From assembly GCA_021157815.1 (NCBI GenBank), contig JAGGVT010000195.1, positions 1 through 29,099 on the forward strand: 29,099 nucleotides of DNA, in the 5' to 3' direction. The DNA comes from a bacterium (lineage in GTDB: Bacteria; JAJVIF01; JAGGVT01). Positions 12,907 to 25,975 of the stretch are shown here, in pieces (the first letter of the stretch is position 1; every line of letters begins with the position of its first letter). Below the pieces are notes generated by a model, which did not search any database, was not told the origin of the DNA, and saw only the letters and a program-made list of their open reading frames with translations. The position numbers were made by a program, and so were the translations under genes.

Positions 12907-13755
12907 ATGATGGCTTTCAAAGATGTTTCTCTCGATGAATTAATCGAATTCGCAAGACAGGTAAGACTGGATATAGTCTTCCAGACAAACAAGGCTAAAT
13001 CAGGGCACCCCGGAGGCCCTCTAAGCGCGACTGATTTCACCACTGTTCTCTTTAAGTCAATAATGAATTACGATCCGAAAAATCCGAATTGGAATGAGCG
13101 TGATATTTTTATCATGTCGAAAGGGCATTGCAGCGCGCTTTCATATTCACTTCTTGCCCGTATTGGAGTAATCCCGATTGAATGGCTGGAGACTTTTAGA
13201 AAAACCGGAAGCCCTCTGCAGGGCCATCCCAATGCCATTAAATGCCCCGGAATTGAGGTTTCAACAGGCTCACTTGGGCAAGGGTTGTCTATCGGAAACG
13301 GAATGGCGCTCGCGATGCGTCTTAACGGCCAGAATGGCAGAAGAGTTTATGTTGTTGCTGGTGACGGTGAAATACAGGAGGGGCAGTACTGGGAGGCGAT
13401 TATGTCATCCGCGCATTATAATCTGGATAACGTTTGCCTTACTGTTGATGTCAACGGCCTTCAAATCGACGGCGCAACAGCTGATGTCATGAATGTTGAG
13501 CCACTGGCTGATAAATTCATAGCCTTCAACTGGCACGTGGTTAGTATCAACGGCCATGATTTCCAGCAGATAATTGACGCCTATAAGGAAGCCGCCGAGA
13601 CTAAAGGAAAACCAACTGTCGTGCTTGCACATACGATAAAGGGAAAAGGTGTCAGTTTCATGGAGGATAAAGCCGGATGGCACGGACGAGCGCCTAACGA
13701 TGAGGAATACAAGATAGCTGTTAATGATATTAACAATATGAAATATCCATGGTAA
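12907..13755 (+). CDS. Transketolase, N-terminal (TPP-binding) subunit
   Basis: Together with the next gene this makes a split transketolase of the pentose phosphate pathway, transferring two-carbon ketol units between sugar phosphates. The 282-residue product starts at one of two adjacent ATGs behind GGTGAG. It has AKSGHPGGPLS (30-40), SKGHCSALSY (71-80) and the thiamine-diphosphate/magnesium motif GDGEIQEGQYWEA (152-164) with DVN at 181-183. Length fits the half-size archaeal/bacterial subunit, lacking the pyrimidine-binding and C-terminal domains supplied by the partner encoded 31 bp downstream. Confidence 0.95.
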   Translation: MMAFKDVSLDELIEFARQVRLDIVFQTNKAKSGHPGGPLSATDFTTVLFKSIMNYDPKNPNWNERDIFIMSKGHCSALSYSLLARIGVIPIEWLETFRKTGSPLQGHPNAIKCPGIEVSTGSLGQGLSIGNGMALAMRLNGQNGRRVYVVAGDGEIQEGQYWEAIMSSAHYNLDNVCLTVDVNGLQIDGATADVMNVEPLADKFIAFNWHVVSINGHDFQQIIDAYKEAAETKGKPTVVLAHTIKGKGVSFMEDKAGWHGRAPNDEEYKIAVNDINNMKYPW

Positions 13756-13786: not shown

Positions 13787-14782
13787 ATGCCTGAAATTCC
13801 TGATGACTATAATGTTCTTGACTACATAAAGCGGGATGAGCTTCCTCCGTTTGAACTGACGCGAAAAGCTTACGCCGAGATGCTGATTGAAATTGGCGGT
13901 GAGAATGAGGATTTGGTTGTCCTCGATGCCGACCTTTCCAAATCAACTATGAGCGACAGATTCGATGAAAAATTCCCAAACAGGTTTTTCGATATGGGAA
14001 TCGCGGAGCAGGACATGCTTTGCACAGCGGCTGGACTTGCGCTTGAGGGTAAACTTCCCTGGGTAAGCACATACGCGGTTTTCGTGACCGGAAGGGCATG
14101 GGACCAGATTAGGAACACAATATGCTACGCTAATCTGAATGTAAAAATCGCGGCATCCCATGGCGGAATTAGTGTCGGTCCCGATGGTCCCACTCACCAG
14201 TGCATTGAGGACATCGGAATCATGCGAGTCATTCCCAACATGACAATCCTCGTTCCGGCTGATTATAACGAGGCGCGAAAGGCGATTAAAATGGCGTGTG
14301 AAATCGACGGGCCTGTAATCGTGCGCCTTAACAGGGAAAAAGTTCCCATCGTTACAAATCCGAATGACCCTTTCATATTTGGCAAAGCAAATATTATTCA
14401 TGATGGCTCCGATGTAACAATAATCACAACCGGCCTGATGAATTACTATTCACTGAAAGCAATGGTCGCTCTTGAAAAAGAGGGAATAAGCGTCCGAGTG
14501 GTAAACGCGCAAACTCTTAAACCATTTGATAAGGAAACAGTTATCAAATGCGCGAAAGAAACTGGCGCGATTGTTACTGTCGAAGAGCATAACATCTACG
14601 GCGGATTGGGCGAAGCTGTAGCGGGAATTGTCGCGCAGGAATATCCTGTCCCGATGAAAATAGTCGGCGTTAATGATGTATTCGGCGAAAGCGGTCCGTG
14701 GGATGAACTTCTCGAAAAATGGGGTCTCAACGACAAGGAAATAATCAAAGCGGTTAAAGCAGTACTTAAAATGAAGAGTTAG
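13787..14782 (+). CDS. Transketolase, C-terminal (pyrimidine-binding) subunit
   Basis: The 331-residue product starts at ATG 13787 with GGGAG 8 nt upstream. It contains the pyrimidine-binding domain with the catalytic glutamate in GIAEQDM (71-77; Glu74), the HGGISVGPDGPTHQ segment and a C-terminal transketolase domain ending KAVLKMKS. It is the partner of the preceding gene, in the usual A-B order. Its TAG stop codon is also part of the first unit of an 8-bp tandem array that forms the 3' flank. A DXPS-like enzyme was considered, but the split form and HGGxxxGxDGPTHQ favour transketolase. Confidence 0.95.
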   Translation: MPEIPDDYNVLDYIKRDELPPFELTRKAYAEMLIEIGGENEDLVVLDADLSKSTMSDRFDEKFPNRFFDMGIAEQDMLCTAAGLALEGKLPWVSTYAVFVTGRAWDQIRNTICYANLNVKIAASHGGISVGPDGPTHQCIEDIGIMRVIPNMTILVPADYNEARKAIKMACEIDGPVIVRLNREKVPIVTNPNDPFIFGKANIIHDGSDVTIITTGLMNYYSLKAMVALEKEGISVRVVNAQTLKPFDKETVIKCAKETGAIVTVEEHNIYGGLGEAVAGIVAQEYPVPMKIVGVNDVFGESGPWDELLEKWGLNDKEIIKAVKAVLKMKS

Positions 14783-14880
14783 CAGGTTAGCAAGTTAGTA
14801 AGTTAGTAAGTTAGCAAGTTAGTAAGTTAGTAGGTTAGCAAGTTAGTAAGTTAGTAAGTTAGTAGGTTAGCAAGTTAGTT
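14777..14880 (+). repeat. 8-bp tandem repeat array (AAGTTAGT family), 3' of transketolase
   Basis: About 13 units of an octamer varying between AAGTTAGT, AAGTTAGC and AGGTTAGC. It starts inside the transketolase stop codon. Because the period is not divisible by three, TAG and TAA occur in every frame on the plus strand and TAA in every frame on the minus strand. It is followed at once by a CCCGGCA..TGCCGGG hairpin at 14884-14905. The gap to the next gene (14783-15172) otherwise holds only palindromic repeats. Confidence 0.9.
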
Positions 14881-14906
14881 GTAGCCCGGCATCCCTTTGC
14901 CGGGGA
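14881..14906. repeat. CCCGG..CCGGGG hairpin repeat
   Basis: A short palindrome (CCCGGCA/TGCCGGG, 6-nt loop) of a family with copies at 17153-17200, 25799-25825, 25831-25857 and 25928-25975. Confidence 0.6.
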
Positions 14907-17152: not shown

Positions 17153-17200
17153 TGTAACCCGGTGTCCCCTCACCGGGGTACTGCGTGAATTAGCCACCCA
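17153..17200. repeat. GTAACCCGGTGTCCC hairpin repeat
   Basis: GTAACCCGGTGTCCCCTCAC and CGGGGTA, then a shared tail ending AATTAGCCACCCA. It matches 25928-25975 over about 48 bp, tail included. Confidence 0.7.
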
Positions 17201-17215
17201 ATAATATCCCGGAAA

Positions 17216-17240
17216 ATAAAAAAACCCTCATTACGAGGGC
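17216..17240 (-). terminator. Terminator downstream of the octamer array, minus strand
   Basis: On the minus strand, CCCTC, loop GTAAT and GAGGG run into TTTTTTTATTTT. Transcripts of the lipoprotein gene at 17572-18369 would pass through the whole octamer array before ending here. Confidence 0.75.
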
Positions 17241-17246
17241 ACAATT

Positions 17247-17560
17247 TCACTAACTTACTAATCTTCTAACTCACTAACTTACTAACTCACTAACTTACTA
17301 ACTTACTAACTTACTAACTTACTAACCTTCTAACTTTTTAACCTGCTAACTCACTAACTCACTAACTTACTAACTTACTAACTTACTAACTTACTAACTT
17401 ACTAACTTACTAACCTTCTAACTTTTTAACCTGCTAACTTACTAACCTGCTAACTTACAAACCTGCTAACTTACAAACCTGCTAACTTACAAACCTGCTA
17501 ACTTACTAACTTACTAACTTACTAACTTACTAACCTTCTAACTTACTAACCTGCTAACTG
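17247..17560 (-). repeat. 8-bp tandem repeat array (AAGTTAGT family), 3' of the lipoprotein gene
   Basis: About 39 units, reading GTTAGTAA on the minus strand, with variants such as GTTAGCAG, GTTAGAAG and GTTTGTAA. It ends within about 12 bp of the lipoprotein gene stop at 17572. The orientation relative to its gene is the same as for the array behind transketolase. There is no coding capacity in any frame. Confidence 0.92.
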
Positions 17561-17571
17561 TTTTTCGGTAC

Positions 17572-18369
17572 TCACAGTTCCAAATTTGCTGAAATCAGAG
17601 TCTCCGGCAACCAGCCATTCATTTCCTCAATGCCACCTTTAATAAGGCGGATAAGATACCAGTTGCCTTCAATGCCCCGACGTCGTCCCTTGATTCGAAT
17701 TATCGTCGCGTGCGCACCCCACGATTTGACATCCTCCACACCGGTTATTTTCGATGTGTCCCATGTAATAAGAAGTGGTACGGGAGTACAGGAAGCGGTC
17801 ATTTCAGGATCGCCCATTTTTGAATTTCTCTCTTTACCTGATTTTTGGATATCAGCTGTTTCCTTTGGATATAATTTTGTACCATCCTGCTTGGATTTCT
17901 TGAATTTATCACCATCTGTTTTAAGTTCAGGATTTTTATCAAGTATCTCTTTCTCCTTTTGTATACGCTCTTCAAGCGCACTCGGGGATTCGCTCATTTC
18001 AGTCAACGGGTTTCCGTTTATATATGCCTTGTCGCCAATATCGAACTTAAATTGCGGACAACCATAATAATCGTTGGTTTCCTTCATCCTCTCCCAGACC
18101 TTCTTTGCGGCTGCGAACTGGTTTACGCATTTGGGTAGATGACCCGGTGAAACGGCTATTTTGTGAACATCCTCAGGTTTGGGTTCAGCTTTCTTGATTG
18201 TGGAGTTTGGGATAGCTGCTCCCTGCTGAGCGGTAATATCCACTACATCGCCTGATCCCGTTTTTTCATCTGGAAAATATTTGGATGTATCACTGCTCGG
18301 GCTGGAGCATGATGTTAATACCCCTAACGATAAAATCACCAATGCGAAAAATATGATAGTAAGTCTCAT
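17572..18369 (-). CDS. Lipoprotein of unknown function with C-terminal SH3-like segment
   Basis: The 265-residue product starts at an ATG with GGAG 9 nt upstream. It has a type II signal with lipobox LTSC (Cys21). A Ser/Pro/Lys-rich linker follows, then a cysteine-containing region (CVNQFAAAKKVWERM and YYGCPQF), a long Lys/Glu-rich stretch and a C-terminal segment (NWYLIRLIKGGIEEMNGWLP) that looks like a bacterial SH3-type fold. I do not recognise a family. Its transcript probably extends through the octamer array to the terminator at 17216-17240. An ATGATATC/GATATCAT palindrome at 18441-18459 sits near its likely promoter. Confidence 0.7.
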   Translation of the reverse strand: MRLTIIFFALVILSLGVLTSCSSPSSDTSKYFPDEKTGSGDVVDITAQQGAAIPNSTIKKAEPKPEDVHKIAVSPGHLPKCVNQFAAAKKVWERMKETNDYYGCPQFKFDIGDKAYINGNPLTEMSESPSALEERIQKEKEILDKNPELKTDGDKFKKSKQDGTKLYPKETADIQKSGKERNSKMGDPEMTASCTPVPLLITWDTSKITGVEDVKSWGAHATIIRIKGRRRGIEGNWYLIRLIKGGIEEMNGWLPETLISANLEL

Positions 18370-25799: not shown

Positions 25800-25975
25800 T
25801 GTAACCCGGTGTCCCTTCACTGGGGCAAAAAGTAATCCGGTGTCCCTTCACCGGGGCAAAACCAAATATATGTCATTCCGACATTCGCGAAGCGAATGGT
25901 CGGAATCCATCCTCCTAAAAATTTAAATGTAACCCGGTGTCCCCTCACCGGGGTAACGCACAAATTAGCCACCCA
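25799..25975. repeat. Cluster of CCCGGTG hairpin repeats with a dRS3-like palindrome
   Basis: Three GTAACCCGGTGTCCC-type hairpins (25799-25825, 25831-25857, 25928-25975) surround a palindrome with ATTCCGAC..GTCGGAAT ends (25875-25907). The last hairpin shares its long tail with 17153-17200. No coding potential. Confidence 0.7.

Follow-up and report, generated by a model that had tools for sequence, protein, structure and literature searches.

Polar octamer arrays docked at stop codons across a bacterial genome

Tandem arrays of an octamer with the consensus GTTAGYAR are dispersed over the bacterial genome examined here with a pronounced polarity, in that the 5′ end of an array hugs a gene edge and, at gene 3′ ends, docks at the stop codon. 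The proteins encoded at these edges are intact, and the number of units varies between strains. We read the arrays, with a probability of about 0.5, as a dispersed, polymorphic and polar octamer satellite (VNTR) family, the placement of which would be due to seeding at gene ends in combination with purging. The placement is striking, but in character the arrays come closer to such a satellite than to an established RNA control element.

Sequences and Methods

The window, i.e. the whole stretch of 29,099 nucleotides that was analysed, is contig C38 of the source genome, an assembly of 3.2 Mb in 221 contigs that is 91% complete. In total, 1.71 Mb of this genome were read, picked partly for array-bearing contigs, and the gene set of 1297 genes comes from our own hexamer-trained caller.

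Results and Discussion

An earlier note on this DNA had described about 39 octamer units on the minus strand between the stop of a lipoprotein gene and a terminator. This array is real (Table 1), with 38.9 copies at 17249-17559 according to TRF, in addition to the count from our own detector. Its first unit follows the TGA stop of the lipoprotein gene after 13 nt, and the terminator on the other side consists of the hairpin GCCCTC-GTAAT-GAGGGT and a T run. A Pfam search of the putative lipoprotein matched no family. The array on the transketolase side is likewise sense to its gene, as had been claimed. For the repeat unit, the octamer period given earlier stands, but a pure GTTAGTAA repeat does not, the consensus being GTTAGYAR. 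Allowing at most 3 mismatches, 31 24-mer matches are observed in the window vs 0 in dinucleotide shuffles, and an Rfam scan of the window returned tRNA as the only match. The transketolase is split, its N- and C-terminal subunits being separate genes, and the C-terminal subunit is full length, with profile end 625/627 reached at residue 328 of 331.

Table 1. Octamer arrays, genes and neighbouring elements located in the window.
Feature	Position	Strand	Remarks
Transketolase N-terminal subunit gene	12907-13755		separate gene
Transketolase C-terminal subunit gene	13787-14782	plus	TAG stop (14780-14782) inside first array unit
First (GTTAGYAR)n array	14778-14881	plus	13 units; behind transketolase C-terminal subunit, same sense
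REP-like palindrome GTAGCCCGGCATCCCTTTGCCGGGG	14881-14905	plus	abuts 3′ edge of first array
REP-like palindrome TACCCCGGTGAGGGGACACCGGGTTAC	17154-17180	minus	dispersed repeat; on 3′ side of array
Intrinsic terminator	17224-17240	minus	hairpin then T run; few nt 3′ of array
Octamer array (GTTAGYAR)n	17247-17558	minus (= sense strand)	37 in-phase units, own detector
Putative lipoprotein gene	17572-18369	minus	265 aa; upstream of array; signal peptide with LTSC lipobox
REP-like palindrome	25801-25861		

Positions 1-3, 5 and 7 of the unit are 97-99.8% fixed and position 4 is A in 95%, with mostly C/T at position 6 and A/G at position 8. The variants GTTAGCAG, GTTAGTAA, GTTAGCAA and GTTAGTAG account for 37%, 25%, 15% and 10%, respectively. 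The unit has no GGG tract, and at most GG occurs, across unit borders. In the 1.71 Mb there are 106 arrays of at least 3 units, which extrapolates to ~148 genome-wide, and none of the called genes contains one of them. TRF over the same 1.71 Mb gives 84 period-8 rows and only 14 arrays of period 4-16 outside the octamer arrays; apart from the octamer, the source genome has no short-period repeat family of any size.

Exact 3-unit matches number 1437 in the source genome, whereas none was present in the 58 other genomes searched, three of which belong to the same class. The earlier note had proposed to look for the octamer in other genomes of the lineage, and arrays of it were found in 0/3 of these same-class genomes. 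A 24-mer scan of GTDB genomes detected the octamer, with far fewer copies wherever these were counted, in Pseudoalteromonas, Glaciecola, Moorena, Bacteroidota, Prevotellaceae, a Planctomycetota MAG and others. A literature search with the octamer written out as an array found no paper.

It should be mentioned that many arrays are located close to or at the end of a contig (L133, L134, L136, L153, L164, L166, L172, L173 and L180). The assembly breaks there, and the true array lengths may therefore be longer. Two arrays (L130 16768-17207 and L175 9130-9407) are composite, with blocks of 3-10 octamers alternating with a repeated spacer of ~45-50 nt that is A-rich or palindromic, i.e. a higher-order tandem duplication.

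The orientation of the arrays is far from the genome-wide 50:50 that the earlier note had set beforehand as the refutation of its proposal. In co-directional spacers, arrays of at least 5 units are sense in 39 cases and antisense in 9 (p=1.5e-5), and the ratio becomes 30:2 for spacers with a single array of at least 4 units. The starts of the arrays are closely tied to stop codons: with a same-strand upstream gene, 49 of 57 start in the interval that runs from 25 nt before the stop end to 15 nt after it, so that what had been noted for two of two arrays, a fixed orientation at the 3′ end of a gene, extends to the whole genome. In 14 of these 49, the TAG of the first unit is exactly the stop of the gene. 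At the stop or at most 15 nt from it, 42/48 arrays are observed, whereas uniform placement within these spacers would give 6.0. When only genes with a native stop are considered, 24/30 are docked vs 3.8 expected, and the docking is unchanged with stricter gene sets. In the mirror control, stops facing the 3′ edge of an array are docked in 1/19. The distance from the 3′ end of the array to the next start codon is mostly 50-500 nt.

Where the array supplies the stop, the proteins are full length in the testable cases: the matches of transketolase, PurB and HydF to their NCBIfam profiles run through to the final profile positions. Among genes with a native stop, PurH and GdhA are examples in which gene and profile end at exactly the same point. 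An array-free orthologue of the transketolase subunit from the same class is longer at the C-terminus by a few residues. An array that lands in the last codons does no harm, since every array has stop codons in all frames and thus acts as the new stop. These stops are present in both array orientations and hence cannot set the orientation, and selection for multi-frame stops was rejected as its cause.

The polarity holds for either orientation of the neighbouring gene: the 5′ gap is shorter than the 3′ gap for 47/48 same-strand and 20/22 divergent upstream neighbours. Spacers between divergent genes, where no gene 3′ end is present, carry arrays in 13/144 cases (9.0%), compared to 42/401 (10.5%) and 10/108 (9.3%) for the other two types (p=0.85). 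This equal frequency argues against the need for a 3′ end and, more than any other finding, against a purely 3′-UTR function; such a role cannot be the whole story. Paired arrays in co-directional spacers point inward ('><') in 7 cases and are arranged as '<>' in 0. In several '><' spacers (L126, L127, L133, L163, L165, L167 and L256), the array pairs flank other repeats, and RNA from the two members of a pair would anneal into long duplexes.

In every neighbour class, the 5′ border is sharply defined and shows about seven bases that are rich in A/G and depleted in C. The 3′ end is ragged, the decay being stronger at the 3′ end in 33 arrays and at the 5′ end in 8. After subtraction of the array, the spacer length has a median of 185 bp with arrays vs 188 bp without them, which means that the arrays are additions. 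The density of dispersed repeats 20-40 nt past the 3′ edge is 0.38-0.45, compared to 0.16 after ordinary stops, and on the 5′ side of arrays with divergent neighbours it is 0.00-0.03 over 300 nt that are partly coding. Palindromes of REP type adjoin many of the arrays. Such REP-like palindromes, of GTAG/GTAA-headed CCCGG..CCGGG families, are scattered in the spacers, often at most 40 nt from array 3′ edges.

As regards the number of units, one stop-docked Pseudoalteromonas array comprises 21, 11 or 7 units, depending on the genome, and three other Pseudoalteromonas genomes have the same gene end array-free, with a different spacer directly after the stop. Within the source species, one array of L113 (IMGVR_UViG_3300016457_001200) is 120 bp (15 units) shorter than in L175, a second one is likewise interrupted by an indel located at the array, and a triple array shows no difference, the flanks being ~99.5-99.9% identical; since metagenome assembly may collapse arrays, this comparison is weaker than the Pseudoalteromonas one. 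L113 is a contig of the IMG/VR viral collection that is ~99.5-99.9% identical over 11.6 kb to chromosomal-looking DNA of the species, and it probably represents a piece of chromosome from a second strain that was assigned to viruses in error. A BLAST search of the source genome with joined flanks, aimed at empty sites, gave among the matches listed only self and array-to-array matches. An empty site of the same lineage was thus not found, and insertion and local growth would both be compatible with the data.

According to the explanation that we favour, the octamer family would have been copied to ~150 places in the genome, with whole units gained or lost by slippage or recombination. The G-rich, C-poor strand starts sharply after a short A/G-rich tract at a gene edge, and from there the array runs outward into the spacer, where it decays before other dispersed repeats take over. 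As a consequence, an array at the 3′ end of a gene lies in sense orientation right at its stop codon. We infer that it is not selection for an RNA function that gives rise to the polarity, but seeding after A/G-rich tracts, which are favoured by the coding strand at gene ends, combined with the purging of insertions that do harm. Against seeding, it has to be pointed out that A/G tracts alone leave a ~4:1 excess of stop edges over promoter edges in co-directional spacers unexplained, and that the polarity in divergent spacers would hardly be derived from it with confidence. The same polarity for unrelated units in other phyla (19:6) and for published G-rich heptamers also hints that these cases have a cause in common, be it functional or mechanistic.

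As a tandem, non-coding short unit at many loci with whole-unit length variation between strains, the octamer resembles bacterial VNTRs and simple sequence repeats, but unlike VNTRs in general it is one family that dominates one genome, with strict polarity and stop-codon docking. With the REP/BIME palindromes in 3′ UTRs, e.g. the GTAG-tagged REPs (PMC3733652), the arrays share the dispersal and the frequent position downstream of genes; they differ in being tandem octamers of one fixed orientation instead of a palindromic unit of ~20-40 nt.

The earlier note had taken the orientation to suggest that the arrays act at the RNA level. The fixed orientation at gene 3′ ends stands, and where an array lies between a stop and a terminator, as in the window, its transcription in full is likely. 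That this shows a role at the RNA level is not supported. A 3′-UTR RNA element is possible but doubtful: the sense RNA, which is predicted to fold because GUUAGY is self-complementary with G-U wobbles, would form a long imperfect hairpin from the stop codon onwards that shields the mRNA from 3′-5′ exonucleases or binds a protein. The sense bias of 39:9, the docking at stops and the location of the window terminator after the array are all in line with this, and the predicted folding is considerable. The sense RNA beats shuffles in 80/80 arrays, with -0.252 kcal/mol/nt vs -0.042 for the antisense, the window array is predicted at -67 kcal/mol with a z of -10.8 vs shuffles, and there is little structure with DNA parameters. 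However, 23-47% of all 8160 octamer repeats fold at least as well, which makes this z not decisive, and selection on sense-RNA folding was rejected; the strand asymmetry of folding is only in the top 6-13% of octamers. Moreover, divergent spacers carry arrays as often and with the same polarity, and docked arrays do not exceed the others in length (p=0.57), their divergence being only marginally lower (p=0.03). Some arrays start just past a T-tailed terminator-like hairpin (L135 14833, L153 1 and L162 2519) and thus probably lie outside the main transcript.

Polar placement is also seen in other phyla. Using a cruder gene caller, the 5′ gap of GTTAG-type arrays is shorter in 37/51, and 24/36 with a same-strand upstream gene start at most 20 nt from the stop; not all of these cases are independent, since they include several orthologous loci of Pseudoalteromonas. 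For other units of 6-9 nt, oriented by the G-rich strand, the 5′ gap is shorter in 19/25. Many unrelated heptamer and octamer arrays are found in loci of Prevotellaceae, Moorena, Bacteroidaceae and Planctomycetota (L054, L066, L079, L090, L096 and L104); several of them are within ORFs as called, and the intergenic ones tend to have their 5′ end to the gene in the G-rich-strand orientation.

A similar rule has been reported for the heptamers GGGAATC and GGGGA(C/T)T of Xanthomonas and Nostoc, which lie close to the neighbouring ORF on their 5′ side regardless of its orientation and are located at most 50 nt from the stop, or overlap it, on the coding strand, with the C-poor strand outward (PMC4692102). 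The average gaps in Xanthomonas are 28 vs 160 nt. These heptamers come in about four copies, form G-quadruplexes, are scarce between divergent ORFs and lie in stable regions, and in this quadruplex context a function was not identified (PMC4692102). The GTTAGYAR arrays hug the neighbouring ORF in the same way, but their unit has 8 nt and up to 40 copies, and they hit divergent spacers equally often. Since a unit without a GGG tract still follows the rule, quadruplexes are improbable as its shared cause. The TAACTGA heptamer direct repeats of Beggiatoaceae, Cyanobacteria and Bacteroidetes, mostly with two to six copies, are in forward orientation just before start codons (PMC4679880). Here too, one short unit occupies well over a hundred sites with a patchy distribution across phyla, has stops in all forward frames and in some cases overlaps upstream stops; the GTTAGYAR arrays, in contrast, dock with their 5′ end at stops and not a few nt before starts.

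We consider it unlikely, though worth stating, that a general bacterial process docks arrays of 7-8-nt units at gene edges with the C-poor strand outward, independently of unit sequence, G-quadruplexes and gene orientation. The arrays would then be an undescribed polar gene-border element, e.g. a one-way transcription gate or the result of directed repeat addition at gene ends. Such a process would be extreme in the source genome and would also operate in Pseudoalteromonas, Bacteroidota, Moorena, Xanthomonas and Nostoc.

The specific version in which Rho makes the arrays a one-way gate is quite improbable. Polymerases running from the spacer towards the gene would be stopped by Rho on C-rich, G-poor and unstructured RNA while outbound ones pass, and gene ends would be insulated from antisense transcription and promoters from read-through. 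The inbound strand indeed has 31.8% C and 7.1% G and is predicted to be unstructured (-0.8 kcal/mol per 312 nt), Rho is encoded in the genome (C202, 611 bits), and the polarity is the same for both gene orientations. YC dimers are the preferred Rho contact, however, and they are sparse in the arrays (7.4 vs 11.8 per 100 nt genome-wide), which is not as expected of a Rho utilisation site with its regularly spaced YC dimers; pure GTTAGCAA arrays, e.g. those of Pseudoalteromonas, have none.

Very unlikely is also the mobilisation of the arrays together with the adjacent REP-like palindromes by Y1 transposases of the TnpA-REP type. The genome has nine Y1_Tnp genes, the repeat density past the 3′ edge is raised as given above, and some loci have the array and 200 bp of flank in common, but the same repeats are also present without arrays, and several different palindrome families adjoin them. 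Finally, templated addition or retro-insertion, in which a polymerase would extend a 3′ end with octamers at an A/G-rich site as in a telomere or a non-LTR tandem tail, should give a sharp 5′ edge, a ragged 3′ edge and head-to-head pairs, and agrees with the purine-rich sharp 5′ border, the 3′ decay, the pairs that are '><' and never '<>', and the concentration of dispersed repeats 3′ of the arrays, but it is highly improbable, as many unrelated repeat families are represented in the 3′ flanks and no reverse transcriptase gene (RVT_1) was found in the 91%-complete assembly, for which a reverse-transcriptase mechanism was rejected.

Conclusions

The octamer arrays constitute a very clear case of a polarity rule for which one earlier report was found, concerning G-quadruplex heptamers and given without an explanation. 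The rule is sharp and recurs elsewhere, and with ~150 natural replicates in one genome the analysis of orientation is straightforward. If the polarity is only a seeding bias, it shows how a satellite colonises gene ends without damage, bringing its own stop codon.
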